The notes under the pieces were generated by a model. That model did not search any database. It worked only from the letters and a program-made list of their open reading frames with translations, and was not told where the DNA came from. A DNA stretch of 64,000 bases from Lachnospiraceae bacterium (GTDB taxonomy: Bacteria > Bacillota > Clostridia > Lachnospirales > Lachnospiraceae): contig JAGBMJ010000043.1 in assembly GCA_017634975.1 (NCBI GenBank), forward strand, positions 1 through 64,000, written 5' to 3'. Positions 56,994 through 64,000 of the stretch are shown in pieces. Position 1 is the first letter of the stretch, and the number at the start of each line of letters is the position of its first letter. The translations under genes and the position numbers were made by a program.

Positions 56994-57572
56994 ATGGCAG
57001 AGAAGAAAGTTATCAAAGTGCTCATTGGCGGTAAAGTAATGACCATGAGCGGCTACGAAAGCGAAGAATATATGCAGCGCGTAGCTTCGTATATCAATTC
57101 CAAGATTGAGGAGTACGAAAAAACAGATGCTTTCCGAAAAGCCTCCAGCGATATCAAGCATCGTATGCTGGAACTGAACTTTGCCGATAACTATTTCAAA
57201 GAGAAAATGCATGTGGAAGAGCTGGAACAGAATCTGAAGGAGAAGCTGGACCAGCTGGATAATTCCAAGCATGAATGTGCGATCCGCGGCGTGATGATCG
57301 ATGATCTGAAAAATGACATCGAGAAACTGAAAAAAGAACAGCACGAAAATGAAAAGACCATCCTGAAACTGCAGATGGAGCTCAAGGACCGGGATCGTCA
57401 GCTGGAAGAAAACAAAAAGGCGGGCGACAGTAAAGAAAAAACTGTGGAACCGAAAGCTGCCCCCGAAGAAAAGGAACCGAAGGATTCCAGGGAAGCGGCC
57501 GGCAGTATAAATGAGATCCGCGATTTCAAGGATCACAGAGATCAGAAACAAAATGAAAAAAACAGACGATAA
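56994..57572 (+). CDS. zapA: Cell division protein ZapA
   Basis: ZapA binds FtsZ and stabilises the division ring. The N-terminal ~95 residues are the ZapA domain (KVLIGGKVMTMSGYESEEYM, QRVASYINSKIEEYEKT). A long coiled coil (~70-150, KKEQHENEKTILKLQMELKD) and a Lys/Glu/Pro-rich tail make it 192 residues, about twice the usual ~90. CGGAGGGGAG precedes the ATG. It is encoded together with a SEDS-PBP fusion, in keeping with a division or wall-growth role. Confidence 0.9.
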   Translation: MAEKKVIKVLIGGKVMTMSGYESEEYMQRVASYINSKIEEYEKTDAFRKASSDIKHRMLELNFADNYFKEKMHVEELEQNLKEKLDQLDNSKHECAIRGVMIDDLKNDIEKLKKEQHENEKTILKLQMELKDRDRQLEENKKAGDSKEKTVEPKAAPEEKEPKDSREAAGSINEIRDFKDHRDQKQNEKNRR

Positions 57573-59757
57573 AAACACAAGGCAGCCTGGTCCAACGGCT
57601 GCCTTATCCATAACAGGGAAACATCCGGAATTGCTGGCACCGGCAGGAGAACTGACCGGCGTGATCGGTGCGATCAATGCGGGGGCGGACGCCGTATACC
57701 TCGGGGCAGAGGCTTTTTCGGCGCGCGCCTATGCCAAAAACCTGAATCCCGAAGAACTGCTGCAGGCTTTGGACTATGCGCATGCCTTTAACCGCAGGAT
57801 CTATCTGGCATGCAATATCCTGCTGCGTGATGCGGAGCTGGAAAGGATCCCGGAAATCATAGATCCGCTTTATGAGCATGGCCTGGACGGGATCATCGTA
57901 CAGGATCTCGGGCTGCTTTCTTTTTTGCATCGGCGCTATCCGTCATTGGCTTTGCATGCCAGCACGCAGATGTCCATCCTGACCGCGGATGGTGCCAAAT
58001 GGCTGGAAAAAATGCATGTGAGCCGTGTGGTCCCGGGACGGGAGCTTTCGCTTAACGAACTGAAAGCCTTTAAAGAACGCGGGATTGAAGTGGAATGCTT
58101 TATCCACGGTGCTATGTGTTATTCCTATTCCGGGCGCTGCCTGCTCAGTTCTTTTGCGGGAGGGCGCAGCGGAAACCGCGGACGCTGCGCGGGACCCTGC
58201 CGGCAGCCGTACCGGTATGCAAGCGGCAAGTCGTGCTATCCGTTAAGTCTGAAAGATATGTGGAGTCTGCACAGGATCGGAGAGCTGATCGATGCGGGGA
58301 TCGATTCTTTTAAGATCGAAGGACGTATGAAAGCGCCGGAGTATACCGCCGGTGTGACAGCGGTTTATCGTAAGTACATCGATGAATATCTGCAAAACGG
58401 GAAGATCAGCGTATCTCCCAAAGATGAAAAAAGACTGGAAGATCTGTATCTGCGCAGCGGAAAACAGGAGGGATATCTCCATCAGCACAACGGTAAGGAT
58501 ATGGTATCTTTATCTTCTCCGGCTTATGGCAAAGTATCCGAAGAGGAAAAGAAACGTGTATCCGAAAAATATCTGGCCGTAAAACATACGATCCCGGTAA
58601 AGATGCAGGCAAGGATCTTTGTAGGGGAACCGCTGCAGCTGACGGTAGAGGCCAAAGATCAGAAGATCATACAAAAAGGAGCGCCTGCGGAAGCAGCCAG
58701 TAAACATACCATGAGCAGTGAACAGTTTGCCGAAAAGCTTTCCAAAACCGGTGGTACTCTGTTTGCGGTTTCCGAATGTCCGGTAGATACGGATGATCTT
58801 TCTTTCGTGCCGGTCAGCACGCTCAACGATCTGCGCCGGAATGCACTGGAACGCCTGCTGAAAATACTCCTGCCGTATCGAAAGGATCTACAGGCAGAGC
58901 AGCTGCCAATCGCTGAAATATCGGCTGGAAGCAATGATATTGCACCCGTATTGCGGATCGGACTGCGACAGACCACGGCTCTGCCGGAGGTGCTGTCGTG
59001 TGAAGAAACGGAAGGCGTGATCCTGAATATGGATGTGTTTGCAAAACAGGCGGCAGCGCTGCAGGAGCTGATACATAATGCCGGTAAAAAACTCTATCTG
59101 CGTCTGCCGGAGATCGTTCGGGAAAAAGATGTACAGATGCTGAAGGAGCAGCTGGCGGAGTTGTCAAGGTTTGAGATTGACGGTATCTATGTGAACGGTG
59201 TGGATACACTGGCGATCGCAGAGGATGTCCTGCCGGAAGTATCCCGGATCGGGGATGCCGGATTTTATGTATTCAATCAACAGGCCGAACAGATGGTGCT
59301 GAAGCATCTGTGCGGCTATACCATATCTCTCGAAAAAGCCGGAAAAGAATACAGCAGTCTGACAGCACCGGAAAAAGCGGAATGTGTTGTTTACGGCTAT
59401 CTTCCGGTAATGTACAGTGCAAACTGTGTTTTAAAAACACTCAAAGGCTGTGACCGTAAAGCCGGCGTATATGAGATTGCAGATGAGAAAGGACATGTGT
59501 TTCCGATCCTGCCGGATCACCGTTATTGTTACAATACAATGTATAACTGTGTGCCCTTGTCACTGCATGCGGAACTGCCCGCACTGCGGGAGCGCAAGCA
59601 GGCAGGCGTTTTCCGGCTGGAATTTACGATCGAAGATAAGGCGCAGATCGTGAGTACCCTGCAGGCATTCGGCAGGCTCTGGTCTTTTGGAACATGGGAT
59701 CCTCCTTTTGCCGCAGGGCAGACAACACGAGGTCATTTCCTGAGGGGGGCCGAATGA
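57553..59757 (+). CDS. Peptidase U32 family protein (RlhA/TrhP-like)
   Basis: A 734-residue protein with the U32 core: ELLAPAGELTGVIGAINAGA, ALHASTQMSILTADGAKW, and the family signature ECFIHGAMCYSYSGRCLLSS followed by SGNRGRCAGPCRQPYR, whose four Cys resemble the Fe-S cluster of U32 RNA-hydroxylating enzymes. A DUF3656-like C-terminal region makes the length closer to RlhA (23S rRNA hydroxylation) than to short YhbU proteins. Despite the name, such proteins are probably RNA modifiers; the target here is not determined. The start ATG 57553 overlaps zapA by 20 bases, and a 9-bp hairpin lies in the first codons. Confidence 0.88.
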   Translation: MKKTDDKNTRQPGPTAALSITGKHPELLAPAGELTGVIGAINAGADAVYLGAEAFSARAYAKNLNPEELLQALDYAHAFNRRIYLACNILLRDAELERIPEIIDPLYEHGLDGIIVQDLGLLSFLHRRYPSLALHASTQMSILTADGAKWLEKMHVSRVVPGRELSLNELKAFKERGIEVECFIHGAMCYSYSGRCLLSSFAGGRSGNRGRCAGPCRQPYRYASGKSCYPLSLKDMWSLHRIGELIDAGIDSFKIEGRMKAPEYTAGVTAVYRKYIDEYLQNGKISVSPKDEKRLEDLYLRSGKQEGYLHQHNGKDMVSLSSPAYGKVSEEEKKRVSEKYLAVKHTIPVKMQARIFVGEPLQLTVEAKDQKIIQKGAPAEAASKHTMSSEQFAEKLSKTGGTLFAVSECPVDTDDLSFVPVSTLNDLRRNALERLLKILLPYRKDLQAEQLPIAEISAGSNDIAPVLRIGLRQTTALPEVLSCEETEGVILNMDVFAKQAAALQELIHNAGKKLYLRLPEIVREKDVQMLKEQLAELSRFEIDGIYVNGVDTLAIAEDVLPEVSRIGDAGFYVFNQQAEQMVLKHLCGYTISLEKAGKEYSSLTAPEKAECVVYGYLPVMYSANCVLKTLKGCDRKAGVYEIADEKGHVFPILPDHRYCYNTMYNCVPLSLHAELPALRERKQAGVFRLEFTIEDKAQIVSTLQAFGRLWSFGTWDPPFAAGQTTRGHFLRGAE
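57579..57605. other. Hairpin within the first codons of the U32 gene
   Basis: AAGGCAGCC (57579-57587) and GGCTGCCTT (57597-57605) form a perfect 9-bp stem, seven bases after the zapA stop. It looks like a terminator that lacks a T-run on the plus strand; on the minus strand it is followed by GTGTTTTTA. Confidence 0.6.
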
Positions 59758-62651
59758 CATTACTGATACTGGATATTTCGAAATATATCATAGTAATGCT
59801 GATGGCGTTATATGTGGCATCGGCGTTTATGGCATTGAAGCGCAAAGATGATGATTTCCGCCGCGGGATCTATGTATGGATGGAACTGCTGGCGCTGGGC
59901 TTCTATCTGCTTTGTATGGGAAATGTAGTACTGCAGATGCATGCGACTGGAAATACGGAAATGCTAAAAAAACTGTCGCTTCTGTCCGTGTTCGAATTTA
60001 TCGTGCTTCTTTTCTTTCCGATCCTGCAGAGAGCTTTTTACAGAGATGTCTATCGTCTGCTGACCTGTCAGATGCAGATGCTGCTCGGGATCGGTTTTGT
60101 GATCCTGGCACGCTTAAATCCGGATCATGCAAGGCGTCAGTTTATCATCATCTGTGTTTCTCTGGTACTGTTTCTGATCGTGCCGTTCATCATACAGAAA
60201 TGGAGTTTTCTGAAGAAGATTCCTTTTGTCTATGGCGGAGCGGGAATCGGTGGTCTCATGCTGGTATTGATCCGCGGACGTCTGATCAACGGTTCCAAAC
60301 TCAATTATAATTTCTTCGGGCTGATCTTTCAGCCATCCGAAGTGATCAAGGTCGTATTCGCCTTTTTCATTGCGAGTTTTTTATATCGGAAGATCGATCG
60401 CAAAAGACTGCTGGTCTCGGCGGTTTTGGCGGCAGTCCATGTATTAACGCTGGTCGCATCCAGAGATCTGGGTTCGGCATTGATCTATTTTGTTATGTAT
60501 GTGGCAATGCTATACGTAGCTTCCGGAAAGGTGCATTACCTGATCGCCGGGATCGGCAGCGGATTGCTTGCGGCGTTTGCAGCGTATTTTCTGTTTTCTC
60601 ACGTGCGTTCGCGTGTACAGGTCTGGCTGGATCCCTGGGCGGATATTGATAATAAAGGCTATCAGGTGACGCAGTCACTGTTTGGAATCGCAACCGGCAG
60701 CTGGTTTGGAATGGGATTAGGACATGGATCACCAAAGACTATTCCTTATGTGGAGGAGGATTTTGTTTTTTCCGCAGTAGCGGAAGAGCTTGGTGTATTC
60801 TTTGCGATCCTGCTGATCCTGCTGTGTCTCTCTGTGGTACTTTCTGCTCTGGTACTTGCCAGCCGGCTGAAAGATCCGTTTTATCGTCTGGTCGCGGTAG
60901 GCCTTGGGATCTGTTATGGCATACAGGTCGTGTTGACCATCGGCGGCGGTACCGGCTTTATCCCGCTGACCGGTGTCACGCTGCCGCTCATCTCCAACGG
61001 AGGCACTTCGGTACTGGTATCCATCGTACTCTTTGGTGTATTGCAGGGCATCTATCTGCTGCGGATGGAAGAATACGATGCCGAAGAGGAAGTAAACGAG
61101 AAACTGGAAGCAGAGTGGGAGGAGTATCTGGATAGCGAGGAAGCGGCGGAGCTGGACGAAGAGGCGCTGGCGGAAAAAGAAGAAGCTTTTTTTGCGGATG
61201 GTCTGGCAGATGAGGAAGAGGAAGAAACGACGGAACAAAGAATCCGCCAGGATCGGGGCATCGCGGTCCACGCTGTGATGTATGCGCTGATCTATCTGCT
61301 GATGCTTGGGAATATTGTGCGTTTTCTGATACTGCAGGGCGGCGAGGCAATGACCAATTCCTATAACGGAAAGCTCCTTGCCATATTGGAGCAGGATAAC
61401 CGAAGGGGAACGATCTATGCGGCAGACGGCACCGTACTTGCGGAAAGTGTTGATAAAAACGGTATGGAAGTACGGGAGTATCCGTTTGCGGAGCAGTTTG
61501 CACAGGTCGTAGGATACGCAGCGAAGGGTGGAGCCGGGATCGAGCGCAGGATGCAGCGCTATCTGATCACTTCGGATGTGACGCTGGCCGAAAAACTGCG
61601 AAATGATATGCAGAACGTGAAAGATCCGGGAAATAACATTCATACAACGCTGCTGCCGGATCTGCAGAAGACGGCTTATGAAGCACTTGGGAACTACCGC
61701 GGAGCCGTGGTAGCCACAGACATAAAGACCGGGCGTATTCTGGCGATGGTTTCCAAACCGGCTTATGATCCCAACGAGATCGAGGAGATCTGGGATACCC
61801 TTCTTGCCGATGAAGAAAGCGGTCTGCTTCTGGATCGTGCGGCACAGGGGCTTTATCCTCCCGGATCGACCTTTAAGATCTTTACGGCGCTCGAATACAT
61901 CCGTGAAAATCCGGACTATGCGAGTTATCATTTTGATTGCAGCGGTACGTTTACAAAAGAGGATGCGTCGATCCAGTGTTTCCATGGCATGGTTCATGGA
62001 GAGGAAGATCTGACGGAATCTTTTGCAAACTCCTGCAATTCTTCGTTTGCGAATATCGGTGTGTCGCTGGACAAAGAACGTTTCGCACAGACGCTTGCGA
62101 CCATGCGTTTTAATGAAACTCTGAAATTTGATCTGGAAACCAACCCGAGCCAGATCCGCATGGGGAAAGAGCTGAATACCAACGATATGATGCAGATCTG
62201 CATCGGCCAGGATAAAACACAGGTGAGTCCGCTGCAGATCAATCTGGCTACGGCGGCCATCGCCAACGGCGGTGTGATGATGCAGCCCTATGTGATCGAA
62301 CGCGTGGTAACGGCGGACGGCAGAGTGATCAAACGATATGAGCCGAAGGAATACGGTACGGTCATGAGCAGCGAGGAAGCACAGATCATGACGGAGCTGA
62401 TGATGGCGGTGGTCGACCACGGCACCGGCAAGCGTATCAATGATCTCCCGTTTACGGTCGCCGGAAAAACCGGATCTGCGGAATTTTCTTCGATCAAAGC
62501 ACAGTCCCATGCATGGTTTACCGGTTTCGCTCCCGCGGAGGATCCGCAGATCGCCGTGACCGTGGTCATGGAAAATGCCGGCAGCGGCGGTGAGATGGCG
62601 GCTCCGGTGGCCGGAAAAGTGATGCAGGAATATTTGGAAGAAAAACAATAA
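59754..62651 (+). CDS. SEDS (FtsW/RodA) glycosyltransferase fused to class B penicillin-binding protein
   Basis: A 965-residue single chain holding both halves of a peptidoglycan synthase. Residues ~1-445 are the SEDS polymerase with about ten helices: FQPSEVIKVVFAFFIASFLY, RVQVWLDPWADIDNKGYQVT, the catalytic-type Asp in YVEEDFVFSAVAEELG (D336), and PLTGVTLPLISNGGTSVLV. Residues ~450-510 are an acidic linker. After one more helix (~515-535), residues ~540-965 are a transpeptidase: NRRGTIYAADGTVLAES, SxxK in YPPGSTFKIFTALEY (S705/K708), SCN (S760), and KTG in VAGKTGSAEFSS (K905). ATG 59754 overlaps the U32 stop (ATGA) and has GAGGGGGG before it. Normally the two are separate proteins. Confidence 0.93.
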   Translation: MTLLILDISKYIIVMLMALYVASAFMALKRKDDDFRRGIYVWMELLALGFYLLCMGNVVLQMHATGNTEMLKKLSLLSVFEFIVLLFFPILQRAFYRDVYRLLTCQMQMLLGIGFVILARLNPDHARRQFIIICVSLVLFLIVPFIIQKWSFLKKIPFVYGGAGIGGLMLVLIRGRLINGSKLNYNFFGLIFQPSEVIKVVFAFFIASFLYRKIDRKRLLVSAVLAAVHVLTLVASRDLGSALIYFVMYVAMLYVASGKVHYLIAGIGSGLLAAFAAYFLFSHVRSRVQVWLDPWADIDNKGYQVTQSLFGIATGSWFGMGLGHGSPKTIPYVEEDFVFSAVAEELGVFFAILLILLCLSVVLSALVLASRLKDPFYRLVAVGLGICYGIQVVLTIGGGTGFIPLTGVTLPLISNGGTSVLVSIVLFGVLQGIYLLRMEEYDAEEEVNEKLEAEWEEYLDSEEAAELDEEALAEKEEAFFADGLADEEEEETTEQRIRQDRGIAVHAVMYALIYLLMLGNIVRFLILQGGEAMTNSYNGKLLAILEQDNRRGTIYAADGTVLAESVDKNGMEVREYPFAEQFAQVVGYAAKGGAGIERRMQRYLITSDVTLAEKLRNDMQNVKDPGNNIHTTLLPDLQKTAYEALGNYRGAVVATDIKTGRILAMVSKPAYDPNEIEEIWDTLLADEESGLLLDRAAQGLYPPGSTFKIFTALEYIRENPDYASYHFDCSGTFTKEDASIQCFHGMVHGEEDLTESFANSCNSSFANIGVSLDKERFAQTLATMRFNETLKFDLETNPSQIRMGKELNTNDMMQICIGQDKTQVSPLQINLATAAIANGGVMMQPYVIERVVTADGRVIKRYEPKEYGTVMSSEEAQIMTELMMAVVDHGTGKRINDLPFTVAGKTGSAEFSSIKAQSHAWFTGFAPAEDPQIAVTVVMENAGSGGEMAAPVAGKVMQEYLEEKQ

Positions 62652-62782: not shown

Positions 62783-64000
62783 ATGAAATTTAAAAGAACA
62801 AAAACAACACGGAAGATTACAAAGCTGTTGGCTATGACTATGCTCTCAGAGCAGATTATGATGGCAGCGCCGGTGATTAATGCGCATGCCGCAGAAGAAA
62901 CACCGGCAGAGTATTCGATTGAATATAATGTGACATCTCCATGGGGAAGTGGCTGCGTTGCAGAACTTACCCTGAATAATCTGGCGGACGCTGATACGGA
63001 GAATTGGACTGTATCCTTTTGTACGAAGGACGAAATCACTAATCTGTGGGGCGGCAGGATTACAGAGCGTAAGGAGCTTCTTGTATCGGATGCTTCCGTA
63101 GAAGTTTATGCTACGGTAGAAACTGATGTCGAGGAAGAGGCAGAAGAAAGAATAGCAAATGAAGATATGACAGAGGAAGAACCGACATCTGAAAAGGCTG
63201 CAATGGAAGAGAAATCTGTAGAAGAGGCAGTTGAAGCAGATACAGAAAAAGAAATAACAGAGGGAGGAAAAGATACGTCAGATTCTGTAGAAACAACAGA
63301 GAGAAAAACGGAAGATGTTTCGGAAACAGAATTATCGGAAGAAGAGCTTACAGATCTTTTGGAAGAAGAATACAAAGAAGTATTAGAAGAGGATCTATTT
63401 GAAGAAGATTTTCCGGATGAAGAAACAGAAGAAGAAACAGAAGAAGAGAAAAATACGTATTTCCGTTATACGGTGGAGGCGCTGGATTATAATGCAGTTA
63501 TTCCGGCCGGTGGTTCCGTTACGATCGGATATAATGCGATCGGAGACGATCAGGCGATCTGGGATGAAAAGGCAGAGATTATATTAAAGGAAACAGCAGA
63601 GGAAGAAGATACTATTCCAACAGGCGGAATCTATGAAGATGACGGTTACACGGTTGAAGTGGTCATTCCGGCACACTGGGATGGTACATACAATGTGCAG
63701 TTGCGGATTACCAATACAAGTGAGAAAACGCTGCATAACTGGGCATTTGTAATGGGAACAAAAGATTCTATTTCCGGTCTGTACAACGCGATGGAATTGT
63801 CGGATAATAATGGTGTGCATCTGATCAAAAATGTCGGGTATTATCAGGATATTCTGGCAGGCGGTACGGTGGAAGTGGGATACACCGCATCCTATGATGG
63901 AAGACCAGATGTACCTGCGGAGTTTGCTTTGTCACAGATGGAGAAGGAAGTAACCACTGCGGAATGTGAGGTGAGCCTCTTTATTACGGAAGAGTGGGAA
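62783..64000 (+). CDS. Secreted protein with CBM2-like modules and acidic insert (3' end outside window)
   Basis: ATG 62783 with AAGGGGAG upstream opens a frame of 406 codons that is still open at the window end. A long signal peptide ends near INAHAAEE. Two beta-rich modules resemble cellulose-binding (CBM2-like) domains: module 1 (EYNVTSPWGSGCVAELTLNN, WTVSFCTKDEITNLWGG ... YNAVIPAGGSVTIGYNAIG) and module 2 (WDGTYNVQLRITNTSEKTLH, NWAFVMGTKDSISGLYNAME ... QDILAGGTVEVGYTASYDG). Module 1 is interrupted after ~115 residues by ~115 residues rich in Glu, Thr, Ser and Asp. Carbohydrate binding is inferred from weak similarity. A long surface protein is likely. Confidence 0.75.
   Translation, partial: MKFKRTKTTRKITKLLAMTMLSEQIMMAAPVINAHAAEETPAEYSIEYNVTSPWGSGCVAELTLNNLADADTENWTVSFCTKDEITNLWGGRITERKELLVSDASVEVYATVETDVEEEAEERIANEDMTEEEPTSEKAAMEEKSVEEAVEADTEKEITEGGKDTSDSVETTERKTEDVSETELSEEELTDLLEEEYKEVLEEDLFEEDFPDEETEEETEEEKNTYFRYTVEALDYNAVIPAGGSVTIGYNAIGDDQAIWDEKAEIILKETAEEEDTIPTGGIYEDDGYTVEVVIPAHWDGTYNVQLRITNTSEKTLHNWAFVMGTKDSISGLYNAMELSDNNGVHLIKNVGYYQDILAGGTVEVGYTASYDGRPDVPAEFALSQMEKEVTTAECEVSLFITEEWE

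Follow-up and report, generated by a model that had tools for sequence, protein, structure and literature searches.

The right part of the 64,000-nucleotide stretch analysed here (the window; contig JAGBMJ010000043.1 of a Lachnospiraceae bacterium) raises the question of whether a peptidoglycan polymerase and its crosslinking partner are made, and operate, as one protein. To our knowledge it is not settled whether SEDS-PBP pairs stay together or swap partners during synthesis, and a pair whose members form one protein in certain species but two in near relatives is a natural test of permanent coupling. A sequence-only reading of the window had described a SEDS polymerase, an acidic linker and a class B PBP in one unbroken frame, and the ORF and translation check of the window bears this out: positions 59754–62651 of the forward strand form a single 965-codon frame with no internal stops, and both domains score above their Pfam cut-offs. 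The features of the gene are as follows.

59754..62651, + strand: fused SEDS polymerase and class B PBP, 965 amino acids (frame and Pfam)
59754..60041, + strand: N-terminal extension, residues 1–96, with about three hydrophobic segments (hydropathy)
60129..61052, + strand: SEDS domain PF01098 (FTSW_RODA_SPOVE), residues 126–433 (Pfam)
60759..60761, + strand: Asp336 (aligned with Thermus RodA Asp255)
61074..61262, + strand: acidic linker, expected to be cytoplasmic, residues 441–503, about 64 residues (composition, alignment)
61263..61343, + strand: PBP membrane anchor helix, about residues 504–530 (hydropathy)
61404..61640, + strand: PBP_dimer_2 pedestal PF21922 (PbpA-type), residues 551–629 (Pfam, above cut-off)
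61701..62627, + strand: transpeptidase PF00905, residues 650–958 (Pfam, above cut-off)
61866..61868, + strand: Ser705 of STFK (motif position, alignment)
62031..62039, + strand: SCN motif, residues 760–762 (motif position, alignment)
62466..62474, + strand: KTG motif, residues 905–907 (motif position, alignment)

The start ATG of the fusion shares bases with the stop codon of the preceding U32-family gene (ATGA), and a GAGG match lies 8 bases to its 5′ side. The alignment with RodA begins near residue 109, after the N-terminal extension, which is common to many split orthologues and alignable from residue 1. PF01098 scores 199 bits (cut-off 26.4), and Asp336 pairs with a residue that, counted by hand in the alignment, is Asp255 of Thermus RodA (6bar), which we take to be the catalytic aspartate of SEDS proteins. 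All features of a class B PBP are present, namely the anchor helix, the pedestal, and a transpeptidase with SxxK, SxN and KTG motifs, and Asp336, SxxK 705, SCN 760 and KTG 905 occur at exactly the residues first read from the letters. Pfam finds no GT51 domain (PF00912) in the fusion, which rules out a class A PBP.

The fusion is shared with other members of the genus. A complete fused frame is found in 21 of the 35 genomes of the genus, which are distributed among four states.

Complete fusion: G000, G151, G152, G153, G158, G159, G160, G161, G162, G163, G165, G167, G170, G171, G173, G176, G177, G178, G180, G181, G182
Junction in frame, gene incomplete or interrupted elsewhere (three): G156, G157, G164
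Split (eight): G004, G150, G154, G168, G172, G174, G175, G179
No assignable state (three): G155 and G166 (contig ends), G169 (gave no orthologue)

In the window's clade, 13 other species likewise have an open frame that runs through the linker and joins both domains; among the matches listed, they are 52–87% identical to the window's fusion. Complete fusions are known from forestomach samples of sheep, goat and water buffalo, and from further sources. The sequence-only reading had named interruption of the linker by a stop or frameshift as the refutation of the fusion, and neither is present in these 13 species. Some fused frames are broken within either the SEDS or the PBP part (L056/L084 of G164, L101 of G156 and L126 of G185); these may represent true decay or sequence error.

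The linker itself is informative. Its acidic character, noted at the outset, is confirmed by 26 D/E against 5 K/R in residues 445–512. The C-terminus of FtsW and RodA and the N-terminus of class B PBPs are cytoplasmic, so that by homology the linker is expected to lie inside the cell. In the seven pairs computed within the 14-member clade, linker pN is 0.19–0.26 and pS 0.63–0.92; pN is thus well below pS in all seven, which argues that the linker is translated in the frame of the fusion, and it is above the pN of both domains in every pair, so that the linker evolves faster than they do. Whole-codon gaps in the linker carry no independent weight here, because the codon alignment was built on the protein alignment. 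These findings bear on whether an assembly chimera or a sequencing error has erased the stop codon separating two genes. With 147 contigs and 7.46% contamination the genome is a draft assembly, as are those of other clade members; however, the same frame recurs in the assemblies of the 13 other species, the linker is constrained at the protein level, and a fused gene of another family (G310) lies on a single 3.8-Mb contig. Clade-wide conservation and linker constraint lead us to reject such an error, which we regard as scarcely conceivable.

An uninterrupted frame could nevertheless yield two working proteins, if the chain were cut in the linker or if the PBP were also started internally. The linker is likely to be unstructured and accessible, and cleavage of a minor fraction is described for an engineered RodA-PBP2 fusion (PMC6207328). 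As to an internal start, codon 438 (61065–61067), which borders the linker on its upstream side, is ATG in 12 of the 14 clade members, five (L055, L059, L063, L064 and L067) share a GTG at column 505, at the beginning of the membrane helix, and nine of the 14 contain one or more of the codons ATG, GTG and TTG in columns 439–505. Against this, the other five have none in those columns, and codons 439–507 of the window's linker contain no in-frame ATG, GTG or TTG, although CTG codons are present. Matches to a ribosome-binding site reach at most three bases before ATG438 in any of the 12 members and five bases before GTG505 in one of the five (L063); in L059 a five-base match precedes a TTG at 492. 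For comparison, four to six such bases lie upstream of the codon at SEDS residue 1 in 13 of the 14 frames. An internal start of a separate PBP is therefore unlikely, and we give the two-protein reading as a whole, cleavage included, a small share of the probability. We infer that the chain is uncut and that both activities work in it. The fixed partner and 1:1 ratio proposed in the sequence-only reading would follow only if the chain is uncut and no separate PBP is produced alongside it.

The catalytic residues speak for activity. Position 336 is Asp in all 35 fused and all 26 split sequences examined, and the catalytic residues are identical throughout the 35 fused sequences, with position 761, the middle of SCN, being S in two; fused and split sequences have the same catalytic residues. 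In both the SEDS and the PBP domain pN is far below pS. It might be supposed that the fusion is a decayed or inactive pair retained as a scaffold, given that two other SEDS and three other transpeptidase genes could do the essential work and that three related frames (in G156, G164 and G185) are interrupted, but the constancy of the catalytic residues and the low pN of both domains make this highly improbable.

Which SEDS-PBP pair, then, has been fused? A profile search of the genome gives three SEDS and four transpeptidase matches, the fusion included. One separate SEDS gene sits after a murD-type gene and before ftsZ (the latter read by eye), another adjoins a PBP with a PF03717 pedestal, and one of the PBPs, on contig C93, is of class A, with GT51. 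The search for separate ftsW, rodA and PBP2 genes suggested earlier thus finds ftsW- and rodA-type genes and other PBPs, and because the genome keeps these, the fusion is an additional pair. An identity with FtsW-FtsI or RodA-PBP2, as the first description implied, does not hold, since gene position and pedestal type point elsewhere; by these two criteria, the fusion is a third, PbpA-type SEDS-PBP pair in addition to the ftsW- and rodA-type genes. The NCBIfam equivalogs score the fusion at 209.4 bits for ftsW (cut-off 337.5), 168.2 for rodA (336.7) and 285.4 for pbp2 (455), and these scores do not separate the pair types, since the genome's own ftsW-, rodA- and pbp2-type genes likewise fall below the cut-offs (291.3, 303.5 and 361.3 bits). 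All 15 fusion-bearing genomes tested have at least three SEDS matches.

Two genes lie directly upstream of the fusion.

56994..57572, + strand: zapA, 192 amino acids, PF05164 at residues 7–90, extended C-terminus (Pfam)
57511..59757, + strand: U32-family gene (PF01136 and DUF3656), its stop overlapping the start of the fusion (Pfam)

The first listed ATG of the U32 frame falls within zapA, and its true start is probably further downstream. The zapA gene was rightly described as extended: its product has 192 residues here and 189–230 in five clade loci (L083–L087), versus 133–136 in nine loci outside the clade. The trio ruvB, zapA and U32 is found upstream in 14 of 16 named loci, ten with a fusion (one of them interrupted) and four with split genes; the two without zapA are L092, on a short contig, and L094, in which ruvB adjoins the SEDS gene. 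The presence of zapA nearby suggests a role for the fusion in division, and is the one feature that does so. To the right of the fusion, at 62783–64000, the next gene, which runs off the window, encodes a protein that has cellulose-binding domains (CBM_2) as well as acidic stretches.

The search of related genomes for the same architecture, also proposed earlier, shows that fusions extend well beyond the genus, into the family, the order sample and other families of the phylum. In the family, order and class samples genomes with short frames were called split by frame length, such that genes cut at contig ends would look split, and the fused counts given here are to be read with this in mind. 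In the family sample 137 of 150 genomes have a match to the PBP part at E 1e-60 or better, and seven of these are fused (G042, G045, G068, G073, G094, G127 and the window's own genome, G000). The remaining family genomes have frames of at most 751 amino acids, and those fetched are mostly neighbouring separate genes; in G041, G120 and G135 there are two frames in register, with a stop codon or just a few codons between them. The order sample has matches in 112 of 146 genomes and five fusions, those of the window, G230, G251, G295 and G310, together with one fused yet interrupted gene (G185). Of 148 genomes in the class sample 60 have a match, none with a long frame except the window (the others reach at most 522 amino acids). 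In the phylum sample at least 123 of 199 genomes have a match, paralogues included, and four are fused among the matches listed, all in one family (G385, G424, G458 and G487). In f82, a distant family of this phylum, all four genomes fetched are fused (L124, L125, L140 and L141), and their linkers are very short. Frames of more than 1000 amino acids in G326 and G477 had suggested further fusions; the loci, when fetched, are split pairs. The sequence-only reading had allowed that the fusion may not be the first of its kind, which is right, and the architecture is not confined to this lineage but is present in several families of the phylum.

Relationships among the fused and split forms were examined on two trees. 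The first, with a simpler model, left out 18 duplicate loci and three partial copies (L076, L078 and L079), and G004 was added to it as L054 with L039. The second has 91 rows (38 fused, 53 split) and a mixture model, with the fused L138–L141 added and L092, L119, L021 and L106 dropped. Incomplete or interrupted loci were excluded, e.g. L056/L084, L101, L115, L116, L126 and those of G155 and G166; one alignment comprises P0001 and 86 of the 142 stretches listed. The 91-row tree requires at least 12 changes between fused and split, nine of them forced by starred branches, and the earlier tree 12, eight of them forced, a count that does not separate gain from loss of the fusion. The AU test rejects the grouping of all fused forms in one clade (p-AU 5.6e-45); in this test the group was defined by the trait already seen and the tree was a quick one with long branches (L135, L014). 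The linkers of the 38 fused proteins range from about 7 to 106 residues by one length rule, which assigns 0 to L139 where about 20 residues are visible in the alignment, and their charge also varies widely, so that no feature of the linker marks a common mechanism.

This recurrence raises the possibility that the fusion is a near-neutral accident of adjacent genes, bringing no functional gain, with fused and split forms behaving alike. The open frames of the split pairs overlap in 41 of 52 cases (start codons not being fixed) and six of the 52 are in the same reading frame, four of these with 0–6 bases between the frames; moreover, fused and split states alternate on the tree with the same catalytic residues in both. 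However, the fused frame has been kept across a divergent clade of 14 species, although a single stop or frameshift in the rapidly evolving linker is all it would take to split it, and we therefore find the accident a serious possibility that we nonetheless doubt. One split pair, L104 (G168), has about 3 kb between its SEDS and PBP frames, unlike the other 51 measured.

The origin of the window's fusion is illuminated by the sister group of its clade, which consists of seven split species (L054 of G004, L099, L102, L103, L104, L112 and L113). In the six measured, the SEDS protein has a C-terminal tail of 135–278 residues that is 43–50% acidic; in the seventh, G004, the tail is long, acidic and repetitive and falls where two contig ends overlap. 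The acidic SEDS tail of this split clade is the likely source of the linker; either the linker would derive from such a tail, or the tail would be the remnant of a linker. In the former case, an acidic C-terminal SEDS tail was probably joined in frame to the gene that follows.

Overall, we think it very probable that the fusion is a natural single-chain peptidoglycan synthase composed of a SEDS polymerase, a cytoplasmic linker and a class B PBP that most relatives encode as a gene of its own, in a genome that also has ftsW- and rodA-type genes. As predicted from its residues and domains, the SEDS part would polymerise lipid II via Asp336, the chain would re-cross the membrane once after the linker, carrying the PBP outward, and the PBP part, on its short PbpA-type pedestal, would crosslink the new strand through Ser705. 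In the simplest model polymerase and crosslinker would be permanently tethered. We speculate further, and tentatively enough that we would not be surprised to be wrong, that the dozen or so switches between states and the long-kept fusions reflect a recurrent natural synthase whose two enzymes stay joined throughout, and that in the window's clade the acidic SEDS tail has become a conserved cytoplasmic tether, and perhaps a docking point within a division complex linked to zapA. The fused state marks the third SEDS-PBP pair as a dedicated partnership, and the fusions are ready-made single-chain proteins for structural and activity work.

Several known systems resemble the fusion in part. Class A PBPs likewise combine a polymerase and a transpeptidase in one chain, but their polymerase is GT51 (PF00912). 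The split Lachnospiraceae pairs (e.g. L095–L098) have homologous domains and the same ruvB-zapA-U32 neighbourhood, but consist of two open frames that overlap in different reading frames. In Actinobacteria rodA lies beside pbpA. The SEDS part of the fusion matches solved FtsW and RodA about equally, and the closest solved relatives of its PBP part are of the PbpA type (3lo7 and 3un7, Penicillin-binding protein A; 4n1x, 4ra7, 4jbf and 4mnr); these share the PF21922 dimerisation domain with the fusion, although the solved structures are of PBP parts alone. Engineered fusions have the same order of SEDS, linker and class B PBP. PMC6207328 reports an E. coli RodA-PBP2 fusion that polymerised in vitro and brought back rod shape to a large extent, and the E. 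coli RodA-PBP2 structure was solved using a functional fusion (PMC10449877). That such engineered chains work makes a single-chain tether plausible, although they are laboratory-made, join the elongation pair, and have linkers of three GGGS repeats (PMC6207328) or TSGSGSGS. As to natural cases, a search for passages in PMC8262863 and PMC10257715 gave nothing on SEDS-PBP fusions, and our searches of openly licensed literature showed no survey of their recurrence. In these searches PMC10449877 alone states that single open reading frames encoding a SEDS-PBP fusion exist in nature, citing the Rhodococcus RHA1 genome paper, which agrees with the suggestion in the sequence-only reading that this may not be the first natural fusion. 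Those cases likewise have a SEDS polymerase and a PBP in one frame, and the present one differs in belonging to the Lachnospiraceae, in its acidic linker and in the zapA gene upstream. The fusion thus joins the natural SEDS-PBP fusions already known, and its recurrence is the more interesting part.
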